36,293 nt of DNA from Betaproteobacteria bacterium RIFCSPLOWO2_02_FULL_66_14 (GTDB lineage: Bacteria > Pseudomonadota > Gammaproteobacteria > Burkholderiales > SG8-39). Positions 4,374 through 36,293 of the stretch are shown piece after piece. The notes under the pieces are model-generated. The model was not told where the DNA came from. It did not search any database and was given only the letters and a program-made list of their open reading frames with translations. The position numbers and the translations under genes are program-made. The stretch covers positions 44,147-80,439 of the forward strand of contig MERB01000021.1 in the NCBI GenBank assembly GCA_001770475.1, written 5' to 3'. Within the stretch, counting starts at the first letter, position 1. Every line of letters begins with the position of its first letter.

Positions 4374-5152
4374 TGCTGCCGCTTCGAGACTGGGACGCGC
4401 GGGAGATCCGCGGATTGCTCTTCGACATCGACGACACGCTGACCACCGACGGCCGGCTCGGGGCCGAGGCGTACCTAGCGATGCAGCGGTTGCACGAGGC
4501 CGGGAAACTCGTCGTGCCCGTCACCGGGCGCCCCGCAGGGTGGTGCGACCAGATTGCGCGGCTGTGGCCGGCCGACGCCGTCGTGGGGGAAAACGGCGCC
4601 CTGTATTTCCAGCGCTGCGAAGGGCGCCTGCTCAGGTGCTTTCACGACCCCGAAGCCTTGCGTGCCGAGCGGCGCGAGCGTCTCCGCGAAATCGCCCGGC
4701 GGATCCTCGACGCGGTGCCGGGGAGCGCGCTCGCTTCAGACCAACCGTACCGCGAGACCGATCTCGCGATCGACTACTGCGAGGACGTGCCCGCGCTTCC
4801 GCTCGAAGCGGCGGAACGCATCGCGGAGCTGATGCGCAAGGAGGGTCTCACCGCGAAAATCAGCTCGATTCACGTCAACGGCTGGTTCGGCGACTACGAC
4901 AAGCTTGTCATGACTCGCAGGCTGTTCGCCGGGCGCTTCGGAGTCGATCTCGATCGCGACAACGCGCATTTCGCGTTCGCCGGGGACTCGCCCAACGACG
5001 CGCCGATGTTTGCGTTTTTCCGCCACTCGGTGGGGGTCGCCAACGTTGCGCGGTTCGACGGGCGTCTGGGCGCCTCTCCCAAGTACGTGACGCGCGCGGC
5101 GGCCGGCACCGGCTTTGCCGAATTGGTCGATCACCTGTTGCGCGTCCGGTGA
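4370..5152 (+). CDS. HAD-IIB family phosphatase, translationally coupled to glpD
   Basis: The 260-residue cytoplasmic protein is a haloacid-dehalogenase superfamily phosphatase of the Cof/sucrose-phosphatase-like class. Motif I is FDIDDTLTTDG, with nucleophile Asp19 and acid/base Asp21. VVPVTGRPAGWC supplies the motif II Thr/Ser region, and GDSPNDAPMF near residue 206 binds Mg2+. The cap domain lies between motifs II and III, as in type IIB. The ATG at 4370 overlaps the glpD stop (ATGA). A frame open further upstream is not needed. The substrate is unknown. The coupling suggests a sugar- or triose-phosphate linked to glycerol-3-phosphate metabolism, but mannosyl-3-phosphoglycerate or sucrose-6-phosphate cannot be excluded. 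A large hairpin follows the stop directly. Confidence 0.85.
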   Translation: MMLPLRDWDAREIRGLLFDIDDTLTTDGRLGAEAYLAMQRLHEAGKLVVPVTGRPAGWCDQIARLWPADAVVGENGALYFQRCEGRLLRCFHDPEALRAERRERLREIARRILDAVPGSALASDQPYRETDLAIDYCEDVPALPLEAAERIAELMRKEGLTAKISSIHVNGWFGDYDKLVMTRRLFAGRFGVDLDRDNAHFAFAGDSPNDAPMFAFFRHSVGVANVARFDGRLGASPKYVTRAAAGTGFAELVDHLLRVR

Positions 5153-24551: not shown

Positions 24552-25232
24552 ATGATGCTCCCCCCTATGCGCCTCTTTGCGTCGCGCTGGCCGAAAATCG
24601 TCCTGCTGCTGGTGGCGCTCGCCGCCCTGGCGCAGGACGCCGCGGTCGGCATCACCGAGGCGCAGATTGCAAAGCTCGCGGCGCAGTTCGGGCCGATTGC
24701 GAAATCCCGGCTGACGGGCTGGCGCGACATTCTGGCGAACCCCAAGTACAAGGCGCTCCCGGAGAACGAGAAGCTGCGCGTGGTGAACGACTTCATGAAC
24801 CTGACGCAGTTCGTGGACGACATCAAGCACTGGGGCAAGGAAGACTACTGGGCGACGCCGATCGAGTTCCTGTCGACCGACGGCGGCGACTGCGAGGATT
24901 TTTCGATTGCCAAATATTTCACACTGCGGGCGCTCGGGGTTCCCGACGACCGGCTGCGCATCACGTACGTGAAGGAGACGGTCATATACAATCAGGCCCA
25001 CATGGTGCTCGCGTACTTCCCAACGCCCGACGCCGAGCCTCTGGTCCTCGACAACATCAACCCGACGATTCAGCCCGCATCCCGTCGCACCGACTTGGTG
25101 CCGGTGTACAGTTTCAACGGTTCGAACCTGTGGCTGGCGAAGGAGCAGACCGGTCGCGGCCAGTCGGTCGGCAGTTCCGACCGCATCGGGCATTGGCGCG
25201 ACCTACAGGCGCGACTGCGTGCGGCAAGCTGA
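24552..25232 (+). CDS. lapG: LapG-like periplasmic cysteine protease
   Basis: This transglutaminase-like cysteine peptidase (BTLCP family) would cut the adhesin N-terminus and release it from the surface when c-di-GMP is low. The 226-residue precursor has a Sec signal in the first 30 or so residues (KIVLLLVALAALA). The catalytic triad is visible: Cys114 in GGDCEDFSIAKY, His150 in QAHMVL and Asp167 in LVLDNINP. Conserved WATPIEFLSTDGGDCEDF precedes it. Start is uncertain between ATG 24552 and ATG 24567; the latter gives a cleaner signal peptide (MRLFASRWPK), and neither has a clear Shine-Dalgarno. It is followed 33 bases later by lapD, its expected regulator, and the window holds a fitting T-A-A-G site in the adhesin. 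Confidence 0.93.
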   Translation: MMLPPMRLFASRWPKIVLLLVALAALAQDAAVGITEAQIAKLAAQFGPIAKSRLTGWRDILANPKYKALPENEKLRVVNDFMNLTQFVDDIKHWGKEDYWATPIEFLSTDGGDCEDFSIAKYFTLRALGVPDDRLRITYVKETVIYNQAHMVLAYFPTPDAEPLVLDNINPTIQPASRRTDLVPVYSFNGSNLWLAKEQTGRGQSVGSSDRIGHWRDLQARLRAAS

Positions 25233-25265: not shown

Positions 25266-27227
25266 ATGAAACTCTCCCGGTTGCTGGGGACGCTGATTTC
25301 CCTGCTGTGGGTGCTGGTGTTCATCGGCACGCTCGGAATCGTCATTCAGAGCACCAAGGATTTCCTTCAGAAAACGCTCGAATCGCACGCCCAGGACACT
25401 GCGACGTTCCTTGGCCTCGCGATTACGCATAGCGGGCGGGTGAAGGACGTCGAGACGGTAGAGCGCATGACTGCGGCGATCTTCGATCGCGGTTACTACC
25501 GCGAGATCCAGGTGCGCGCGATGGACGGCAAGCCGCTCGTCACGAAGCGGGTCGAACAGGCGGTCGAAGGCGTGCCGCAGTGGTTCATCGAGCGTTTCCC
25601 GCTCGAGACGCCGCGGATGGACGCGATCGTGATGGACGGCTGGCGCCAGGCGGCGAAAATCGAGGTGGTGAGTCACCCCGGGCACGCGTACGCCGAGTTG
25701 TACCGCGTGTCGTCGCAATCGTTCTGGATCCTGCTTGCCGCCGCCATCGTCTCCCTGGTGGTCGTGCTGACGGCGCTGAAGCTCGCGCTGCGGCCCCTCG
25801 ACGATATGGAAGCGCAGGCGATCGCCATCACCAAACGCGAGTTCAAGGTGCTGCCGAAGCTGCCGTGGGCGCGCGAATTGCGCCGCGTGGCCGGCGCCCT
25901 GAACCAGATGGTGGTGTCGGTGGAGCGCATGCTCACCGAGCAGACCGATCTGGCCGAGAAAATGCGCAAGAAGGCCTACATCGACCCGGTCACCGGCCTG
26001 ATGAACCGCAACGATTTCGCCGAGCGCGTTTCGCACCTGATCGGCGCGCCGACCAAGTTCTCCACGGGCGCGCTCGCGGTCATCCGCATCCGCGGTTTCA
26101 TGGCGTACAACGAAAAAAATGGACGCGTCGAGGGCGACGCGCTGCTGAAGCGGGTGGCGACGCTGCTCGGTATCGTCACCGAAAAAAGGGCTGGCGCGCT
26201 GCTTGCGAAGCTCGACGGCCCGGAATTCGGCGTCGTCGTGCCGGAACTGCTGGACGCCGACGTTCCCAAGCTCGGCGACGAGTTGATCGGCGCGCTGGCG
26301 GAGATCGAGGAATTTCCGCGCACCGAAGCGAGCGTCATGGCGCACGCAGGCATGACGTACTACCGGTTTCACGAGGGCGCGTCGTTCGGCAAGCTGATGG
26401 CGACCATGGGTGCCGCGCTTGGCGTGGCCCAGGCGCGCGGCATTCCGGCGTGGCACGTGGAGATGGAGGGCGCGGCGCAGGCGGTCAACACGATGTATGC
26501 CGAAATCAACGGCATGTTCAAGGTGGGTTTGCCCGCCGATCGCGTGGCGCTGCAGTTCCAGCCCGTTCGGGCGACCCGCATGCCCGAATCCGACTGGGCC
26601 TATCGCAGCGAGTCCTGCGTCCGGATTCTCGGTTCGGACGGGCAGCTCATCCGAGCCGGCCTGTTCATCGCCACGGCGAAACGGCTGGGCGTACTGCAGT
26701 TGCTCGACAAGGTGGTGGTGGAAAAGGTCATGCAGCGCATTGCGGCGAGCGGCCCGGTGCGCGGCGGTGCGACCGCCGTGAATCTGTCGCTCGAATCGAT
26801 CATCGATCCGCCGTTCGTCGAGTGGCTGCATGCGAAGCTCAAGGCCCAGCCCGAAGTCGCGCGCCACGTCATCGTCGCGGTCATGGAGCAATCGATCATC
26901 GGTCACATCGACAGCGTGAAGGCTGCCTTCGGCCGCCTGCGCGAGACGGGCGTACGCCTGTCGATCGACCGGTTCGGCCAGAGCACGGCCTCCGTCGGCC
27001 ATCTGCGCAGTCTCGACGTGGACTACGTCAAGCTCGACGGCAGTTACACCCGCGGCATGGCTGATTCGAGCGACAAGCAGTTTTTCGTTCAGGCAATCGT
27101 TGGAATCGCGCACGGCCTCGGCATCCAGGTGCTGACCGAGTACACGGAGACCGAGACCGACTTCGAACTGGCGAAGAGCCTGCTCGTAGACGGTGCGCAG
27201 GGTTATTTCATCGGCAGGCCGGAGTAA
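25266..27227 (+). CDS. lapD: LapD-like inside-out c-di-GMP receptor
   Basis: The 653-residue inner-membrane receptor should bind c-di-GMP inside the cell and then hold LapG in the periplasm, which protects the adhesin. Membrane helices are at about 6-28 and 152-172, flanking a LapD/MoxY-type periplasmic domain. Trp126 in VMDGWRQAAKIEVVSHPGHAY matches the Trp known to contact LapG in Pseudomonas. A HAMP domain follows. The GGDEF motif is degenerate (LDGPEF, 316-321) and the EAL motif is replaced by LQFQP (429-433), so neither synthesis nor hydrolysis is expected. The EAL-like fold is otherwise complete to FIGRPE at the end. GAGG precedes the ATG. No active diguanylate cyclase is encoded nearby. 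Confidence 0.93.
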   Translation: MKLSRLLGTLISLLWVLVFIGTLGIVIQSTKDFLQKTLESHAQDTATFLGLAITHSGRVKDVETVERMTAAIFDRGYYREIQVRAMDGKPLVTKRVEQAVEGVPQWFIERFPLETPRMDAIVMDGWRQAAKIEVVSHPGHAYAELYRVSSQSFWILLAAAIVSLVVVLTALKLALRPLDDMEAQAIAITKREFKVLPKLPWARELRRVAGALNQMVVSVERMLTEQTDLAEKMRKKAYIDPVTGLMNRNDFAERVSHLIGAPTKFSTGALAVIRIRGFMAYNEKNGRVEGDALLKRVATLLGIVTEKRAGALLAKLDGPEFGVVVPELLDADVPKLGDELIGALAEIEEFPRTEASVMAHAGMTYYRFHEGASFGKLMATMGAALGVAQARGIPAWHVEMEGAAQAVNTMYAEINGMFKVGLPADRVALQFQPVRATRMPESDWAYRSESCVRILGSDGQLIRAGLFIATAKRLGVLQLLDKVVVEKVMQRIAASGPVRGGATAVNLSLESIIDPPFVEWLHAKLKAQPEVARHVIVAVMEQSIIGHIDSVKAAFGRLRETGVRLSIDRFGQSTASVGHLRSLDVDYVKLDGSYTRGMADSSDKQFFVQAIVGIAHGLGIQVLTEYTETETDFELAKSLLVDGAQGYFIGRPE

Positions 27228-27299: not shown

Positions 27300-29468
27300 G
27301 TGAACGAAGCAATAGCCAAGAAGCAGTGGGAAATTCCGCCGACACGGCTGTCGGCGGACGACCCGTTGCTCAAGTGTCTCGTCCTGCTGACGCGATTCTT
27401 CAATCGTCCGTTTTCGGCCGAGACCCTGTCGGCGGGCTTGCCGCTGGTTGACAATCGCCTGACGCCCGCGCTTTTCGCGCGTGCAGCCGAGCGCGCCGGG
27501 CTGACGGCCAGCGTCGTCACACGCAAGTTGGAGAAAATTTCGCCGCTGGTGCTTCCGGCGGTGCTGCTGCTCGATGACGGGCGCGCTTGCATCCTTCGAA
27601 GTGTCAAGCCTGGCGGGATCTGCGAAATCGTCGATCCCGACACGGGCGGTGCCGCGGACAGGTCGCTCGCGGAGGTGCAAAAGGAGTACTCCGGGCACGC
27701 GATTTTCCTGCGCCAGCAGCTGCGGTTCGATTCCCGCACCGAGCACAGCGCGGTGCCGCGAATCGCCCACTGGTTCTGGGGCGTGGTGCGGCAGGCTTGG
27801 CCGATCTACGGCGAAGTGCTGCTGGCTTCGGTGCTGATCAATACGTTTGCGCTCGTGATGCCGCTGTTCATCATGAACGTGTACGACCGCGTGGTGCCGA
27901 ACGACACGACCGAAACGCTTTGGGCGCTGGTCGTGGGGGTTTTCATCGTGCTTGCGTTCGATTTCGGCATGCGGATGTTGAGGGCCTATCTCATCGACAT
28001 CGCCGGCAAGCGGATCGACGTCATCCTGTCGGCGAACATATTCGAGCGCGCCATGGGAATGCGGATGGAGGCACGGCCGGCGTCCGTGGGTTCGTTCGCC
28101 AGCAACGTGCAGGAGTTCGAGTCGTTCCGCGAATTCATCACCTCCGCAACGATCACCGCGCTGGTCGACTTGCCGTTCGTGTTCCTGTTCATCGGGGTGA
28201 TCTTCTGGGTCGGCGGCAATGTCGGTCTGGTGCCGCTCGCCGCGGTGCCGATCATCATCCTGGTGGGTCTGCTGCTGCAGCGCCCGCTGGGCGAAGTGAT
28301 CCAGCAGACCTTCCGCTACGGGGCACAAAAGCAGGGGCTGCTGATCGAAAGCCTGGCCTCGATCGAGACGGTCAAGGCGCTCTCGGCCGAAGGCGCGCTG
28401 CAGCGCAAGTGGGAGCAACTCGTCGGCACCATCGCGCGGCTCGGGATCAAGGCGCGCACGCTGTCGCAGGCGATCATCAACATCTCGATGACGGTGCAGC
28501 AGCTCGCGAGCGTCGGGGTCATCGTGATCGGCGTGTACCTGATCTACGAGCGCGAACTCACGGTCGGGGCGCTCGTCGCCTGCACCATTCTCACCGGCCG
28601 CGCGCTTGCGCCACTCGGTCAGGTCGCCGGCCTGATGACGCGCTACCACCAGTCGGTCGTGTCGCTGCGCACGCTGCAGAACATCATGCAATTGCCGCTG
28701 GAGCGCCCGGCCAACAAGAGCTTCGTCCACCGACCGAACGTGCGTGGGGACATCGAATTCCGCAACGTCACGTTCTCCTACCCGGGACAGAAGACACCGG
28801 CGCTGCAGGGCGTGTCGTTCAAGGTTGCGGCGGGCGAGCGCGTCGGCCTGATCGGGCGCATCGGGTCGGGCAAGTCCACGATCGAGAAACTGGTGCTGGG
28901 GCTTTACACGCCGACGTCGGGGTCGATTCTGATCGACGGCGTCGACGTCAACCAGATCGATCCGGCGACGCTGCGCAAGAACATCGGATACGTTCCTCAG
29001 GACGTCGTGCTGTTCTACGGCACGGTCAAGGAAAACATCCTGTACGCGGCGCCTTATGCGGACGATGCGGCGATGCTGCGCGCGGCGGATATCGCCGGCG
29101 TCACCGAATTCGTCCATCCGTCGGCGCAGGGTTTTGACCTGCACATCGGCGAGCGCGGCGACGGGCTTTCGGGCGGGCAACGCCAGACGGTGGCGGTCGC
29201 GCGTGCGCTGCTGCTCGATCCGCCGGTTCTGATCATGGACGAGCCGACCAACGCCCTCGACAACCGGTCCGAGGAGACGTTCAAGCGCAAACTGGACCTT
29301 TACCTCGCCGGCAAAACCGTCATGCTGGTCACGCACCGTGCGTCGCTGCTGACGCTGGTGCCGCGCCTGATCGTGCTGGACGGCGGGCGAATCGTTGCGG
29401 ACGGTCCGAAGGAGCAGGTGATGCAGGCGCTTTCGGGTGGAAAAATCAATGTCGCCAAGCGAGCCTAG
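27300..29468 (+). CDS. lapB: Type I secretion ABC transporter (LapB-like)
   Basis: The 722-residue inner-membrane exporter ATPase powers adhesin secretion. Residues about 20-130 form a C39-like domain in which the peptidase Cys-Gly is replaced (DPLLKCLVLLTRFF), so it should bind substrate without cutting. The ABC membrane domain is at about 155-440. The nucleotide-binding domain has Walker A GRIGSGKST (519-527, Lys525), signature LSGGQRQTVAVARAL (623 on), Walker B VLIMDEPTNALD (Asp647, Glu648) and the H-loop VTHRASLL. The start is GTG with GGAG seven bases before it. The 72-base gap after lapD has CATAAT at 27231-27236, which could be an internal -10. lapC starts nine bases after the stop. 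Confidence 0.95.
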   Translation: MNEAIAKKQWEIPPTRLSADDPLLKCLVLLTRFFNRPFSAETLSAGLPLVDNRLTPALFARAAERAGLTASVVTRKLEKISPLVLPAVLLLDDGRACILRSVKPGGICEIVDPDTGGAADRSLAEVQKEYSGHAIFLRQQLRFDSRTEHSAVPRIAHWFWGVVRQAWPIYGEVLLASVLINTFALVMPLFIMNVYDRVVPNDTTETLWALVVGVFIVLAFDFGMRMLRAYLIDIAGKRIDVILSANIFERAMGMRMEARPASVGSFASNVQEFESFREFITSATITALVDLPFVFLFIGVIFWVGGNVGLVPLAAVPIIILVGLLLQRPLGEVIQQTFRYGAQKQGLLIESLASIETVKALSAEGALQRKWEQLVGTIARLGIKARTLSQAIINISMTVQQLASVGVIVIGVYLIYERELTVGALVACTILTGRALAPLGQVAGLMTRYHQSVVSLRTLQNIMQLPLERPANKSFVHRPNVRGDIEFRNVTFSYPGQKTPALQGVSFKVAAGERVGLIGRIGSGKSTIEKLVLGLYTPTSGSILIDGVDVNQIDPATLRKNIGYVPQDVVLFYGTVKENILYAAPYADDAAMLRAADIAGVTEFVHPSAQGFDLHIGERGDGLSGGQRQTVAVARALLLDPPVLIMDEPTNALDNRSEETFKRKLDLYLAGKTVMLVTHRASLLTLVPRLIVLDGGRIVADGPKEQVMQALSGGKINVAKRA

Positions 29469-29477
29469 GGCATAGCC

Positions 29478-30809
29478 ATGGCACAGGCGATGGAGCACCG
29501 GGAAGACATCGATTACATGAGCGAAACGGCTGCGGCCGCGATGCAGGGTCCGCCGACGTATTCGCATGCGCTCCTCTGGGCGGTGGTCGCGTTCATCGTG
29601 GCGTTCGTGGTCTGGGCCGCGTATGCCAACATCGGCGAGACGACGGTCGGAGACGGCAAGGTCATTCCGTCGAGCCAGGTTCAGGTGATTCAAAACCTGG
29701 AGGGCGGCATCGTTTCGGAGATCCGGGTCAGGATCGGCGACGTGGTGAAAAAGAATCAGATCCTGATGCTGATCGACGACACGCGCTACACCTCTTCGTT
29801 CCGCGAGAACAAGGCGAAGAACGACGCACTCGGCGCCAAGATTGCGCGCCTCACCGCGGAGGCTTCGGGAAAGCCGATCGATATGCCGGCGAACGTGCGC
29901 CGTGACAATCCGGATCTGGCCGAGCGGGAGTTGACGCAATACCGCTCCCACCAGGCTGAATACAATGCCAACGTCGCGGCGATCAATCAGCAGATCGACC
30001 AGCGCACCCAGGAGTTGAAGGAAAAGCGTTCGCGCCTGGTTCAGATCAACGCCAGTATCGAACTGCTCGACCGGGAACTTGCGATGTCGCGGCCGCTGGT
30101 GAAGCAGGGCGCGATGTCGGAGGTCGAGCTGCTCCGGCTCGAGCGCCAGGCCGTCGAGCTGAAGGGCGAGTTGGACTCGACGAAGATTTCCATTCCGCGG
30201 CTCGAATCCGCAGTCTCCGAGGCGCGCCAGAGGTTGGAGGGCTACATTGCGAAATTCCGCAATGACGCGCAAGGGGAACTCAACCAGGTGCGCGCCGAGC
30301 AGGAAGGGGTTGCCGCGACCAGCGTCGCGCTCAAGGACCGGGTCGAGCGGGCGGTCGTGCGCTCACCCGTGACGGGGACCATCAAGTCGGTCAAGGTGAC
30401 CACGATCGGAGGCGTCGTCCAGCCGGGTTCTGAGCTTCTCGATATCGTTCCGCTGGAAGACAATCTGCTGGTCGAGGCGCGGATCAAGCCGCGCGACATC
30501 GCATTCATTCGCCCCGGCCAGGAAGCGCTGGTCAAGATCACGGCCTATGATTTCTCGATCTACGGCGGGTTTCCGGCCAAGGTCGAGAACATCAGTGCGG
30601 ATTCCATCACGGATGAAAAGAAGGGCGACAGCTACTATCTGGTGCAGGTTCGCACGACCAGCAACGTGCCTGCGCGAAGCGACAAACCGGTGGCGATCAT
30701 TCCGGGAATGACTTCTACGGTCCACATCCAGACCGGGGAAAAAACGTTCCTGCACTACCTTTTGAAGCCGATCATCAAGACCAAGGAAATGGCGTTCCGC
30801 GAGCGCTGA
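29478..30809 (+). CDS. lapC: Type I secretion membrane-fusion protein (HlyD family, LapC-like)
   Basis: The 443-residue adaptor links the LapB exporter to the TolC-like channel across the periplasm. It has a short cytoplasmic N-terminus, one membrane helix at about 30-50 and a split lipoyl domain (NLEGGIVSEIRVRIGDVVKK, then VRSPVTGTIKSVKVTTIGGVV). A long coiled coil at about 105-270 separates the halves. The C-terminal barrel ends in the family motif IIPGMTSTVHIQTGEKTFLHYLLKPI. It is co-transcribed with lapB, with a nine-base gap. Confidence 0.95.
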   Translation: MAQAMEHREDIDYMSETAAAAMQGPPTYSHALLWAVVAFIVAFVVWAAYANIGETTVGDGKVIPSSQVQVIQNLEGGIVSEIRVRIGDVVKKNQILMLIDDTRYTSSFRENKAKNDALGAKIARLTAEASGKPIDMPANVRRDNPDLAERELTQYRSHQAEYNANVAAINQQIDQRTQELKEKRSRLVQINASIELLDRELAMSRPLVKQGAMSEVELLRLERQAVELKGELDSTKISIPRLESAVSEARQRLEGYIAKFRNDAQGELNQVRAEQEGVAATSVALKDRVERAVVRSPVTGTIKSVKVTTIGGVVQPGSELLDIVPLEDNLLVEARIKPRDIAFIRPGQEALVKITAYDFSIYGGFPAKVENISADSITDEKKGDSYYLVQVRTTSNVPARSDKPVAIIPGMTSTVHIQTGEKTFLHYLLKPIIKTKEMAFRER

Positions 30810-30837: not shown

Positions 30838-31494
30838 ATGGCGATCCTGGTTGCGTCTCAGGATACTGAACTGATCGACCGCTGCCGACGGGCGGTGAGT
30901 GCCGAGCACCAGCTCGAAGTGAGGGGCGATTTCGCGCGAACCCTGGAGAGGATCCAGTCGCTCGCGCCCGCCGTCGTTCTGCTGGATGCGGGATTGCTGA
31001 CTTCACCGATCGAGAAGCAGGTCGCTACGATCGTCGCCGCTGGGCGCACGGCGCGCGTCATCGTCCTGACCCAGGTCTTCCAGGAAGACGAGGAAATTGC
31101 CCTGCTGAAGGCCGGCGCCAAAGGCTGTTGCCGGCGCGGCGTCGATGCGGAGTCCCTGCAGCGCGTTATCAACGTGACGCAGAGTGGGGGCGTTTGGGTC
31201 ACCCGGACCCTGCTCCCGAGGCTGGTGATGGAATTGCGACGTGCTGCTGCAGCGCAGCAGGCCCCGACCCCGCTCAGGTCAGCGACCGGAAAGCACGTCT
31301 CGGACAAACTGGCCGGGCTCTCGGTCCGTGAACGTGAAATCGTGAGGCTTCTGGTGGATGGCGCCACCAACAAGGAGGTCGCAGGCGCCCTGAACATCTC
31401 CGAACGCACGGTGAAGGGTCACTTGTCGAACGTGTTCCAGAAACTCGGCGTCACCGACCGGCTCAAACTCGTTCTCATGGTGCGCGGCGAGTGA
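30838..31494 (+). CDS. LuxR/FixJ-type regulator with degenerate receiver and WVTR motif (VpsT-like?)
   Basis: The 218-residue protein has an N-terminal receiver-like domain (about 1-117) and a C-terminal LuxR helix-turn-helix (about 150-215: LSVREREIVRLLVDGATNKE, then SERTVKGHLSNVFQKLGV). The receiver is atypical. The usual acidic pair after the first strand reads VASQD, and the conserved Lys is Arg (GCCRRGVD). An Asp remains in VVLLDAGLL and a Thr in VIVLTQ. Just after the receiver is Trp120-Val-Thr-Arg123. In the same place VpsT of Vibrio cholerae has W[F/L/M][T/S]R, which binds c-di-GMP. Control by c-di-GMP instead of phosphorylation is therefore possible. Many NarL-type regulators have loosely similar residues here, so this is inference. 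It lies 28 bases after lapC and probably controls the adhesin locus. Confidence 0.9.
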   Translation: MAILVASQDTELIDRCRRAVSAEHQLEVRGDFARTLERIQSLAPAVVLLDAGLLTSPIEKQVATIVAAGRTARVIVLTQVFQEDEEIALLKAGAKGCCRRGVDAESLQRVINVTQSGGVWVTRTLLPRLVMELRRAAAAQQAPTPLRSATGKHVSDKLAGLSVREREIVRLLVDGATNKEVAGALNISERTVKGHLSNVFQKLGVTDRLKLVLMVRGE

Positions 31495-31596: not shown

Positions 31597-31769
31597 TGAT
31601 CGCGTTGGGAAGAGTGTTGCAGGATCACGACAGGGAATTTTTCCGCATCGAGCAAAAGCTGTTTTTCCATTTACGCCAATCGGTTAGATCAGTAACCTTT
31701 CAAACAGACTGAATAACGCGTGGACTGGCGAAGGGTGGCGCGCTCCCCGTTTCCTAGAGGAATGACTCA

Positions 31770-33125
31770 ATGAAAAAACATTCGGTTTCTATTCTGGTCG
31801 CTGCGGTTGCGTTGGCGTTCGGTGCACCGGTCGGTGCGGAGACGCTCAAGGAAATCGTGACCTTGGCGGTGGAAACTCATCCCGAAGTGCTGAGCGCGAC
31901 CCACAAAAAAGATGCTGCAGATTCGGCGAAAGAGGCGGCCTTCGGAGGCTACTTGCCGCGCATCGATGCGGTGATCGCCGGTGGAAATGAGCGAAGCCAG
32001 AACCCGAGCACGCTCCTTCTCAATCCGCCGCCGAACAACCCGACGGGAAATCCGGGATGGGTCAAGCTGCCGCGCTACCAGGAAACCGTCATCCTCAACC
32101 AGATGCTCTGGGACGGGCTCGGCACACGCGCCGAAGTGGCTCGGCGGCAGGCGATTTCGGACTCTTCCGCGCACCGCGTCTACGGCACCTCGGAAGACAT
32201 CGCGCTGCAGACGATCGATGCGTATCTGGACGTGCTCAAGAATACCGATTTCGCCGGCTTTGCGAAGGAAAACCTGGCGGCCCATCAGAAGACCTACGAT
32301 CAGGTGAAACTGCGCGCCGACCGCGGCGTCGGTCGCAGGGCGGATCTGGAGCAGATCGAAGCAAGGCTCGCGCTGGCGCAATCCAATCTTTCAGCCGCGG
32401 AAAGCACCCTGCGGGATTCGGAGATTGCGTACCTCAAAGTGGTGGGCAAGGCGCCGATCAGTTTGACCCGGCCCGATCGCCCTGCGATCCCGGGGTCGGT
32501 GGACGAAGCGGTGGCCACCGGGTTTCAGAACCACCCGATCCTGAAATCGTCGCTCTCGGACATCGAGGCCGCGCAAGCGCAACGCGAAATCGCAAAATCG
32601 TTCTATTCACCCAGGATCGAGCTGGAGGCGAGCTTTTCGAACAACCGGGATCTGGACGGCGTCTCCGGACCGAACCGGGATCGCCTGGTCATGATGTTCA
32701 TGAAGTGGAATCTGTTCCGCGGCGGGTTCGACCTCAACCGCAACCGGGAAACCGCAAAGCAGATCAGCGAGGCGCAGGAAATCTCGCGCAATACGCGGCG
32801 GCAGGTCGAGGCTGCGGTTCGCCTGGCCTATAACGCCTTCGCCACTGCGCGTGACCGGCTTCCGTCCCTGGACCGCTACGTCAAAGCGAGCGATGCGACG
32901 CGCGTCGCTTACGCGCAGCAGTTCAACATCGGCCAGCGCACCCTGCTCGACTTGCTCGACGCGGAAAACGAATACTTCACGTCGCGCAAGACCCAGCTGG
33001 ACGCTCAGATCATCGAGCTGCAGGCCCGGTTCCGCGTGCTGAATGCGATGGGCGCGCTGCTCCAGTCGCTCGAAGTCAAGCCTTCAGGGCACGCTTTCGT
33101 TGCGACCGGGTCTGAGGGTAAATAG
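31770..33125 (+). CDS. lapE: TolC-family outer-membrane secretion protein (LapE-like)
   Basis: The 451-residue precursor has a signal peptide cleaved after about residue 24 (ILVAAVALAFGAPVGA-ET). The mature part is a typical outer-membrane efflux protein: long helical repeats with two related halves. These include TLKEIVTLAVETHPEVLSA at the N-terminus, LDVLKNTDFAGFAKENLAAH and LRADRGVGRRADLEQIEARLALAQ. The second-half counterparts are NIGQRTLLDLLDAENEYFTSR and FRVLNAMGALLQSL. It would complete the LapB-LapC channel in the outer membrane. AGAGGAA precedes the ATG at a good distance. The symbol follows the Pseudomonas lap nomenclature by position and type. Confidence 0.93.
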   Translation: MKKHSVSILVAAVALAFGAPVGAETLKEIVTLAVETHPEVLSATHKKDAADSAKEAAFGGYLPRIDAVIAGGNERSQNPSTLLLNPPPNNPTGNPGWVKLPRYQETVILNQMLWDGLGTRAEVARRQAISDSSAHRVYGTSEDIALQTIDAYLDVLKNTDFAGFAKENLAAHQKTYDQVKLRADRGVGRRADLEQIEARLALAQSNLSAAESTLRDSEIAYLKVVGKAPISLTRPDRPAIPGSVDEAVATGFQNHPILKSSLSDIEAAQAQREIAKSFYSPRIELEASFSNNRDLDGVSGPNRDRLVMMFMKWNLFRGGFDLNRNRETAKQISEAQEISRNTRRQVEAAVRLAYNAFATARDRLPSLDRYVKASDATRVAYAQQFNIGQRTLLDLLDAENEYFTSRKTQLDAQIIELQARFRVLNAMGALLQSLEVKPSGHAFVATGSEGK

Positions 33126-33155: not shown

Positions 33156-33178
33156 GGGGCGCGATGCGCCCCGTCTTT
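33156..33178 (+). terminator. Weak terminator-like hairpin after the TolC-like gene
   Basis: GGGGCGC (33156-33162) pairs with GCGCCCC (33166-33172) around GAT, followed by GTCTTT. The U-run is short and interrupted, so partial read-through into the next three genes is likely. Confidence 0.4.
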
Positions 33179-33197
33179 GCTTGAGGTGGCGGAAGAC

Positions 33198-33536
33198 ATG
33201 CCGTACGTGACGCGCGACAAGTCGGGCAAAGTCAGCGGTGTCTCGGATCGTGCCGAGATCGGCCTTTCAGAGGAAGTTGGGCCGGACCATCCGGAACTGG
33301 TGCAGTTCCTGGTCGATCAGGGCCTTTCTACGCCGGAGTCGATCCGTCAGACGCTGGCTGAGAGCGACCTGCAAATGGTGCGCCTGGTCGACGACCTGAT
33401 CGACCTGCTCATGGACAAGGGACTGATCAAGTTCACCGATCTGCCGCAGGCGGCCGGGGAGAAATACCTGCACCGCCAGGTGGCGCGCAAACAGCTGCAG
33501 GGCAACCTCGTCGTCGACGAAAACGACATTCTGTAG
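33198..33536 (+). CDS. Small acidic protein of type I secretion loci (112 aa), function unknown
   Basis: The 112-residue protein has no signal peptide or membrane span, so it should be cytoplasmic. It opens MPYVTRDKSGKVSGVSDRAE. Its core is LAESDLQMVRLVDDLIDLLM, followed by DKGLIKFTDLPQAAGEKYL and an acidic end, VVDENDIL. I recall similar proteins, often mislabelled 'tryptophan synthase subunit beta-like', beside T1SS adhesin genes in other proteobacteria; this is memory, not a search. I chose ATG 33198 because GAGGTG lies nine bases upstream. A TTG at 33177 would extend it by seven residues. Its place between the channel and adhesin genes suggests a role in adhesin production or targeting, but nothing in the sequence proves this. 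Confidence 0.8.
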   Translation: MPYVTRDKSGKVSGVSDRAEIGLSEEVGPDHPELVQFLVDQGLSTPESIRQTLAESDLQMVRLVDDLIDLLMDKGLIKFTDLPQAAGEKYLHRQVARKQLQGNLVVDENDIL

Positions 33537-34891: not shown

Positions 34892-34930
34892 TGTGCGAAA
34901 CCGCACAACCGGTACCAAGGTATCGGTACC
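34892..34930 (+). promoter_or_regulatory. Dyad and GGTAYC repeat cluster in the adhesin leader
   Basis: TGTGCG (34892-34897) pairs with CGCACA (34902-34907). Then CCGGTACC (34909-34916) and GGTATCGG (34919-34926) form a near-perfect dyad around AA. A further GGTACC is at 34925-34930, so GGTACC, GGTATC and GGTACC follow each other. TATAGA at 34931-34936 could be a weak -10. The cluster is a candidate operator for the adhesin gene. A further hairpin, CGGGCG (34981-34986) with CGCCCG (34992-34997), lies nearer the start. Confidence 0.4.
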
Positions 34931-35036
34931 TATAGACCTGCCATTCCCGGAGAAATCCATTCAGAATTCAGTCGTGTGATCGGGCGGTGGGCGCCCGGTT
35001 CGGTGAAACGACAATCCCTCAAGGAGGGGTAGACAA

Positions 35037-36293
35037 ATGGCTGCGACAGGCAAAGTTCTCGGCACGGTGACCTCGATCGTCGGTGAAGTCAAGGCGACGG
35101 CGGCGGACGGCACGGTTCGAATCCTTCAGGTCGGCGACCAGATTCACGCCGACGAAACCATCAACACCGGCACGCTCGGCTCGTTGGTCATCACGCTGTC
35201 GAATGGTGCCACGATGGATTGCGGCGCCAATACCGATCTCGCGATGAGCGAAAGCATGCTGGGCGTCGCGTCGGCAGTCACGGCGCCGACCCCGGGCGCG
35301 GCGACGGATGTCGCGGCGCTGCAGGCGGCGATCGCCGCGGGTCAGGATCCCTCCAAGATCGCCGAGGCCACTGCGGCGGGTGGTGCGCCGGCGGCGGGTG
35401 GCGCGCTGGATGGCGGTTCGCATTCACCGGTCATCATCGAACAGTCGAACAGCGCGGGCGTCGTGGCCGCAGGGTTCACCACTACCGGCGCAGGGATCGG
35501 TTTCCCGGCACCGGAGTTCGAATTGGTGGCTGCCGAACCGCAGCCAACGGTCGGAGTCCAGCCTGTTCCGCCAAGCGCGGTTCCGGGAGCTGGCGGCAGC
35601 GAGCAGGGAGTTGTCATTTCAGGGCAGGCCGTAGGCGTAATCGAGGGGACCAATGGCATAGAGGCGAAAATCGTGGCGTTCCTGGTCAGCCTCAGCAGCC
35701 CCTACAGTCAACCTGTAACTGTCACGTATCAAATTCTGGAAGGCACCGCCACGACGCCGTCGGACTTCTACGATGGACCGATGACGGGCACCGCCACGAT
35801 ACCCGCGGGAGCGACAGAGTTCTTCGTTACGGTCAGTATCGTGCAGGACCACTTTGTAGAAGGCAATGAAACATTCCGAATCGAGTTGACCGGCGCGACT
35901 AACGCGACGATCAATCAGGACGCGGATGCGGTGGTTGTGACCATCATCGACGACGATTTCCCGCCCTTGGCGAACGCGGATGCCTATACGACCGCCGAGG
36001 ACACGCCGCTCACGATTGCGGCAGGAAGCGGCGTCCTGACGAACGACACCGGCGCTGAGTCGAACGAAGTGCTGACGGTCACGGGAAATACCAGTCCGAG
36101 CCACGGCACGGTGACGCTCAACCCCGACGGCAGTTTCACCTATACGCCGAACGCGGACTACAACGGCCCGGATTCGTTCCAGTACTCGATGACCGATGGC
36201 TTCAACGGCACGAGCACCGCGACGGTGAGTATCAACGTCACGCCGGTGAACGATCCGCCGCTGGCGGCGAATGACGGCTACAGCACGAACGAA
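35037..36293 (+). CDS. Giant LapA-like RTX-type surface adhesin, N-terminal part (runs off the window)
   Basis: The frame is open for 419 residues to the right edge. AAGGAGGGG gives a strong ribosome binding site. There is no Sec signal, as expected for type I secretion. Residues about 1-105 form the LapA-type retention module (GKVLGTVTSIVGEVKATAAD, then INTGTLGSLVITLSNGA) that plugs the TolC channel. A T-A-A-G site at 112-115 follows and fits LapG cleavage. After a Gly/Ala/Pro-rich linker there is a Calx-beta-like domain at about 195-300, ending VVVTIIDDD. A cadherin-like/VCBS-type repeat comes next at about 302-405 (NADAYTTAEDTPLTI, then TYTPNADYNGPDSFQYSM and VTPVNDPP). The last residues start the next repeat. 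The C-terminal RTX repeats and secretion signal would lie outside the window. It should anchor cells in biofilm while c-di-GMP is high. Confidence 0.93.
   Translation, partial: MAATGKVLGTVTSIVGEVKATAADGTVRILQVGDQIHADETINTGTLGSLVITLSNGATMDCGANTDLAMSESMLGVASAVTAPTPGAATDVAALQAAIAAGQDPSKIAEATAAGGAPAAGGALDGGSHSPVIIEQSNSAGVVAAGFTTTGAGIGFPAPEFELVAAEPQPTVGVQPVPPSAVPGAGGSEQGVVISGQAVGVIEGTNGIEAKIVAFLVSLSSPYSQPVTVTYQILEGTATTPSDFYDGPMTGTATIPAGATEFFVTVSIVQDHFVEGNETFRIELTGATNATINQDADAVVVTIIDDDFPPLANADAYTTAEDTPLTIAAGSGVLTNDTGAESNEVLTVTGNTSPSHGTVTLNPDGSFTYTPNADYNGPDSFQYSMTDGFNGTSTATVSINVTPVNDPPLAANDGYSTNE
35370..35381 (+). other. Predicted LapG cleavage site in the adhesin
   Basis: Codons ACT GCG GCG GGT encode Thr112-Ala113-Ala114-Gly115. 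In Pseudomonas fluorescens LapA, LapG cuts between the two Ala residues of the same tetrapeptide near residue 108. A second, weaker candidate, P-A-A-G, follows within a few residues. Confidence 0.7.

Follow-up and report, generated by a model that had tools for sequence, protein, structure and literature searches.

The gene at 30838 to 31494 of the window, by which we mean the whole stretch of 36,293 nucleotides analysed here, belongs to a Gammaproteobacteria-wide family of LuxR/GerE-type regulators that are mostly encoded just 3' of lapC and beside a LapA-type adhesin gene. Its product probably binds a 16-bp dyad ahead of the adhesin gene and controls the adhesin, a reading to which we give a probability of roughly 0.75 on the strength of sequence comparison. 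In the mechanism proposed here, the gene would encode a dedicated, phosphorylation-independent transcription regulator of LapA-type adhesin genes. The pseudo-receiver would be incapable of a normal phospho-switch, would dimerise and would sense a non-phosphorylation cue through a surface that includes a near-invariant tryptophan (Trp120) at the alpha5/alpha6 junction. The GerE domain would bind the dyad, which lies some 70-150 bp before the start of the adhesin gene, and would in this way set transcription of the adhesin in the lap locus as well as of a second, unlinked one. The family, its linkage, the loss of the phospho-site, the conservation of the tryptophan, the dyad with its near-uniqueness and adhesin placement, and a covariation at residue 194 were all computed.

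The regulator gene within the lap cluster

The regulator gene lies among the following features of the window:

24552 to 25232, forward strand: LapG-type periplasmic cysteine protease (PF06035; NF045674 220.9 bits, under the equivalog cut-off)
25266 to 27227, forward strand: LapD-type c-di-GMP receptor (LapD_MoxY_N, GGDEF and EAL)
27300 to 29468, forward strand: LapB-type type I secretion ATPase/permease (TIGR03375, 995 bits)
29478 to 30809, forward strand: LapC/HlyD-type adaptor (TIGR01843)
30838 to 31494, forward strand: lap-linked pseudo-receiver LuxR/GerE-type regulator gene, encoding 218 aa and starting 28 bp after lapC
31770 to 33125, forward strand: TolC-type outer-membrane channel (TIGR01844)
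35037 to 36293, where it leaves the window, forward strand: LapA-type adhesin with N-terminal retention module, the predicted target gene (NF033682 94 bits, cut-off 50)
35370 to 35381, forward strand: TAAG, predicted LapG di-alanine cleavage site within the adhesin (Ala-Ala rule)

A retention-module adhesin with a LapG site, LapD, LapG and a type I secretion system are thus gathered in a single cluster, as is characteristic of a Lap system. Besides its N-terminal retention module the adhesin has the TAAG site and tandem-95-like repeats, and LapG is known to cleave by the Ala-Ala rule (PMC9430717, PMC4933386). A first-pass annotation, made from the sequence alone, had placed the regulator gene between lapC and a TolC-like gene in a locus containing LapD, and the neighbours were identified as such. 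The adhesin gene and the dyad ahead of it go beyond that annotation.

Several other elements of the cluster were also recorded. A gene flanked by tolC and an M23 peptidase gene encodes a conserved 119-aa protein (33177-33536, forward strand) that is kept in orthologous loci and gave no match in Pfam or NCBIfam. Upstream of tolC lies a dyad of the form TGTTG-N8-CRACA (31615-31632), which is unlike the adhesin dyad, is also present at six of the seven other orthologous loci and is followed by a conserved TTTACGCCAA block; no exact further copies of it were found in the window. Just ahead of the adhesin start, CCCTCAAGGAGGG (35016-35028) forms a small hairpin that would mask the ribosome-binding site and that close orthologues keep. 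No riboswitches, c-di-GMP types included, were found in the window with Rfam at the gathering threshold, and a sigma-70-type promoter scan gave no match.

Close orthologues of the regulator (65-75% identity) occupy the equivalent place in six other Betaproteobacteria contigs, lying between lapC and tolC or the adhesin. When 399 genomes of the order were searched with a profile, about 71 matches with E up to 4e-39 were separated by a gap from ordinary NarL-type regulators, which began at 5.5e-34; a class-wide profile search supplied further family members. Of the 108 family loci, 83 encode LapC directly 5' of the regulator and 93 contain a lap gene or a retention-module adhesin in the retrieved stretch. 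The gap between lapC and the regulator has a median of 4 bp, and the two genes are therefore probably co-expressed. Furthermore, the regulator is present in every one of the 53 Burkholderiales genomes whose retention module exceeds the cut-off; at a strict threshold it was found in 22 of 29 retention-module genomes of the class sample, and in G569, G681, G769 and the sub-cut-off G776 the adhesin has a divergent copy as its neighbour. The window gene shows each of the marks of this family: adjacency to lapC and the adhesin, Trp120 and the adhesin dyad. The lap-linked pseudo-receiver regulators are apparently an undescribed family, the open-access literature having given only an Achromobacter annotation as an earlier description. 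A W-[IFVL]-R-R sub-family in family f15 (L045, L088-L090, L092, L097 and L102) is mostly unlinked to lap and found in genomes without a retention-module match.

A receiver with a degenerate phosphorylation site

The residues and domains of the regulator discussed below are as follows:

30856 to 30861, forward strand: S7-Q8, where the receiver acidic pair would be (alignment with NarL and VpsT)
30985 to 30987, forward strand: D50, the phospho-Asp position, kept here and in 75 of 108 family members
31135 to 31137, forward strand: R100, where the conserved receiver Lys would be (Lys in 44 of 44 ordinary relatives)
31195 to 31206, forward strand: W120-V-T-R123, aligned to VpsT W131-L-T-R134, at the start of alpha6
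31318 to 31482, forward strand: GerE (LuxR-type) helix-turn-helix domain, residues 161-215 (Pfam PF00196)
31417 to 31419, forward strand: recognition-helix residue G194; half-sites are CG[GA]TAC where this residue is Gly and mostly [CT][TA]GTAC where it is Ala

The C-terminal helix-turn-helix was recovered by Pfam well above the cut-off (GerE, 72.7 bits against 23.5), and no Response_reg match was found in the 218-aa protein. Receiver residues were assigned using NarL (1A04) and VpsT (3KLN) as reference rows. On this alignment the canonical response-regulator set is incomplete, with S7/Q8 in place of the acidic pair and R100 in place of the Lys, and only D50 and T78 are retained; VpsT likewise combines a degenerate phosphorylation site with a kept Asp. 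The degeneration is family-wide, as the acidic pair and the Lys are absent from nearly all of the 108 sequences and position 50 is His or Arg in 24. The first-pass view that this receiver lacks both the acidic pair and the Lys, making normal phospho-signalling doubtful, is borne out. Position 16 (30883-30885) is Trp in 84% of the non-redundant family and Cys in the window's clade.

The W-V-T-R motif

The same annotation had proposed a c-di-GMP-binding, VpsT-like protein because W-V-T-R at residues 120-123 is one residue off the VpsT motif, and the motif is indeed encoded at that place. It aligns gap-free to VpsT W131-L-T-R134 at the alpha5/alpha6 junction and fits W[F/L/M][T/S]R at three of four positions, Val replacing F/L/M at the second. 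PMC7288161 gives K120 and W[F/L/M][T/S]R as the c-di-GMP ligand residues of VpsT, and R134A abolishes c-di-GMP binding by VpsT (PMC3359988). The resemblance exceeds chance, since among 44 ordinary phosphorylatable relatives of the NarL/FixJ type only 2 have Trp at column 120 and none has Arg at column 123.

Alignment of the family divides the motif. Of all receiver residues Trp120 is conserved best, occurring in 107 of 108 members (93 of 94 at 80% redundancy), but Arg123 is present in only 61 and has been lost in the other 47, with at least nine changes on the tree. Residue 122 is Gly in most members, and T/S122 is rare outside the window's clade. The counterpart of VpsT K120 is R109 in the window protein, with K/R in 19 of 61 non-redundant family members and Gln in L034/L036. 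The complete W-x-[TS]-R is found in nine family sequences, which are exactly the nine members of the window's clade; this WVTR clade spans two bacterial families with identity down to about 52%. VpsT homologues of other genomes also retain W-x-x-R. As such, the Trp, rather than W-x-T-R, is the family trait. Because the Trp alone is family-wide, c-di-GMP binding is confined as a plausible property to the WVTR clade and is no trait of the whole family. The expectation that orthologues would keep the motif while their phosphorylation residues drift therefore held for the Trp, the degenerate phospho-site and the clade, and failed for the Arg in the wider family.

In a quick tree with long branches, built without the motif columns, VpsT and CsgD group together (SH-aLRT 99) and the lap family falls outside this group; membership of the VpsT/CsgD clade is thus not supported. 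AlphaFold2 models have a mean pLDDT of 81.9 for the full length and 89.2 for the receiver, which is folded as expected of this domain; residues 104-115 form alpha5 and 123-139 form alpha6. The motif thus sits at the start of alpha6, as in VpsT, and VpsT chains rank 3 and 5 when the full-length model is compared with the PDB, where many ordinary response regulators score alike. With the receiver alone, however, VpsT falls to rank 49, the best matches being NarL/LiaR/VraR-type receivers. Given these near-ties and the receiver rank, the fold is undecisive: it is compatible with VpsT-like binding and is not evidence for it.

A dyad upstream of adhesin genes

One further feature of the window concerns the adhesin gene itself:

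34910 to 34925, no strand assigned: dyad CGGTACCAAGGTATCG, the predicted operator, 127 bp ahead of where the adhesin gene starts

Conservation around this predicted operator extends to 34930. When 7-mers were counted without a prior pattern in the 350 bp ahead of each of 39 family adhesins, the top ones were pieces of TTGTACC-NN-GGTACAA. If up to 4 mismatches are allowed over the 16 positions, a site occurs in 24 of these 39 upstream regions against 2.2% of shuffles, and in 31 of 51 regions against 1.8% of shuffles in a second adhesin set, taken from profile hits and partly overlapping the first. The counterparts mostly lie 70-150 bp before the start of retention-module adhesins, unlinked adhesins included. 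Most of the family shows the form [CT][TA]GTAC-N4-GTAC-A-[AG], and the window's clade the form CG[GA]TAC-N4-GTA[TC]CG.

The dyad is close to unique in the genome. The 2.43-Mb genome of the window (G000, 87% complete) holds only one further match to the palindrome CGGTACCNNGGTACCG at up to one mismatch, and both sites precede unlinked retention-module adhesins, at 127 and 126 bp upstream. The second site, on contig C14, is identical over 21-22 bp with otherwise different flanks, and no GerE-domain protein was found on that contig. The adhesin behind it (L225 4878-11999, operator block 4752-4767) exceeds 2,370 aa and has two retention-like modules. Exact sites, one or two per genome, are present in five of the six other genomes examined from this genus or from f46, and all but one of them stand before an adhesin. 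Ten further genomes hold 16 exact TGTACYNNRGTACA sites, of which 11 precede retention-module adhesins; three of these 11 lie apart from the regulator gene (G407:C21, G172:C3 and G773:C29), and the pattern read backwards occurs twice. Most of these ten genomes were chosen for a good lap-locus site; the lap-locus sites are thus partly ascertained, and the off-locus sites, which are free of this bias, are the clean evidence. Four of ten off-locus sites (G000 and G164 included) precede retention-module adhesins, of which a genome has one or two, and a rough binomial calculation on four of nine off-locus sites gives 2e-11.

The association is not complete. A clear adhesin dyad was not seen in the regulator-positive L036, G056, G553, G575 and G686, and the G164:C150 site and others precede unrelated genes. 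On G149:C6, dyads that include one tandem pair (L239 1501; L245 1501 and 1517) stand before apparently secreted non-adhesin proteins, a possible sign of a wider regulon. The dyad could also act in part as an RNA hairpin, which is conceivable from the TTCG centre of some copies.

A link between dyad and regulator is suggested by the recognition helix. Residue 194 aligns with V189 of NarL, a base-contacting position in the complex of NarL with DNA. Regulators with Gly194, which are those of the window's clade, go with half-sites that have G at position 2 in six of six cases, and those with Ala194 go mostly with [CT]TGTAC or TAGTAC, that is, with T or A there. This match comes from one clade with six loci in two families and so represents one or two evolutionary events, making it supportive and not proof. 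Together with the placement of the predicted operator, it favours the first-pass suggestion that the regulator controls adhesin expression.

Comparison with known regulators and alternative explanations

VpsT of Vibrio cholerae (3KLN/3KLO) resembles the window protein as a GerE-type regulator of biofilm genes with a degenerate receiver and W-x-T-R at the start of alpha6, and it also affects LapG-controlled adhesin genes (PMC6890996). It differs in forming a separate clade, in its identity of only about 19% in the fold alignment and in ligand residues (the Arg and the K120 counterpart) that are not family-wide in the lap family; the window gene, unlike vpsT, forms part of the lap cluster. Another atypical LuxR-type protein that acts as a master regulator of biofilm components is CsgD of Escherichia coli/Salmonella, but it groups with VpsT in the tree, not with the lap family, and carries Y-F-T-Q at the W-V-T-R position. 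NarL/LiaR/VraR-type regulators share the overall fold and the helix-turn-helix, but keep a full phosphorylation site and lack W-x-x-R. In Pseudomonas, FleQ controls lapA transcription in response to c-di-GMP alongside LapD/LapG retention control (PMC6890996); as an AAA+ domain regulator it has an unrelated fold. The Achromobacter artA/T1SS locus contains an annotated luxR gene, HPS44_23285, in the order hlyB, hlyD, luxR, retention-module adhesin, BTLCP (LapG-like) and EAL protein, as here (PMC9430717), and this gene, known by annotation only, is likened by gene order and not by sequence.

How the regulator is switched admits several answers. A conventional phosphorylated response regulator using D50 with a variant acidic pocket is very improbable: D50 and T78 are indeed kept, but the acidic pair and the Lys are gone, the Asp is replaced by His or Arg in nearly a quarter of the family, the Lys is universal in ordinary relatives, and no histidine kinase gene was found among the neighbouring genes examined. 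A more specific form of our main explanation is that c-di-GMP, held by W120/R123 and R109 of two receivers, would drive dimerisation and DNA binding as in VpsT, so that one messenger would serve both adhesin synthesis and LapD/LapG retention. The gap-free motif and the pairing of R109 with K120 (PMC7288161), the fixation of WVTR in the clade, the degenerate phospho-site, LapD in the same cluster, the W-x-x-R of VpsT homologues and the full-length ranks speak for it. The repeated loss of an Arg whose counterpart VpsT requires, the rarity of T/S122 and of a basic residue 109, the separate clade and a receiver model closer to ordinary NarL-type proteins speak against, and we hold it tentatively, at somewhat under even odds. 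Similar standing is given to an orphan regulator, ligand-free or protein-controlled and equally compatible with the main explanation, in which Trp120 would be structural or part of the dimer interface and activity would be set by a partner protein or by protein amount through lapBC co-transcription. An invariant Trp beside a drifting Arg is what packing of alpha6 would produce, and the gene abuts lapC in many loci, but such a regulator leaves the fixed WVTR and the VpsT parallel unexplained.

Control of the adhesin by the window protein could itself be mistaken if the dyad were bound by another, unlinked regulator and the window protein controlled something else in the cluster. The assignment of dyad to regulator is drawn from sequence, and the distinct conserved dyad upstream of tolC offers another candidate site. 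This alternative is unlikely, given the near-perfect co-occurrence of gene and adhesin, the residue-194 covariation and the genomes G696 and G770, which have an adhesin without a lap-type regulator and whose best dyad site is no better than chance. Direct control of the adhesin by the lap-linked regulator is thus preferred, with c-di-GMP as the leading, though still tentative, candidate cue in the WVTR clade. The first-pass VpsT-like reading survives in the degenerate phospho-site, the Trp and the clade's WVTR, and is weakened by the loss of the Arg, the tree position and the receiver fold rank.

Implications

Control of both LapA-type adhesin synthesis and retention by c-di-GMP is described for FleQ in Pseudomonas and for VpsR/VpsT/FlrA in Vibrio (PMC6890996); what would be new here is a regulator built into the lap cluster, together with its operator. 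A defined operator addresses the question of how transcription of LapA-type adhesin genes is controlled beyond Pseudomonas and Vibrio. Moreover, an operator that occurs once or a few times per genome makes the question easy to test and points to the probable regulon, namely retention-module adhesins, whether linked or not. With a shade more reserve than for the cue itself, a two-level switch may be envisaged in which the regulators of the clade bind c-di-GMP via W120/R123 and couple transcription from the adhesin dyad to the messenger of LapD-controlled retention. If the c-di-GMP part is true, a single messenger would govern adhesin synthesis and surface retention from one cluster.
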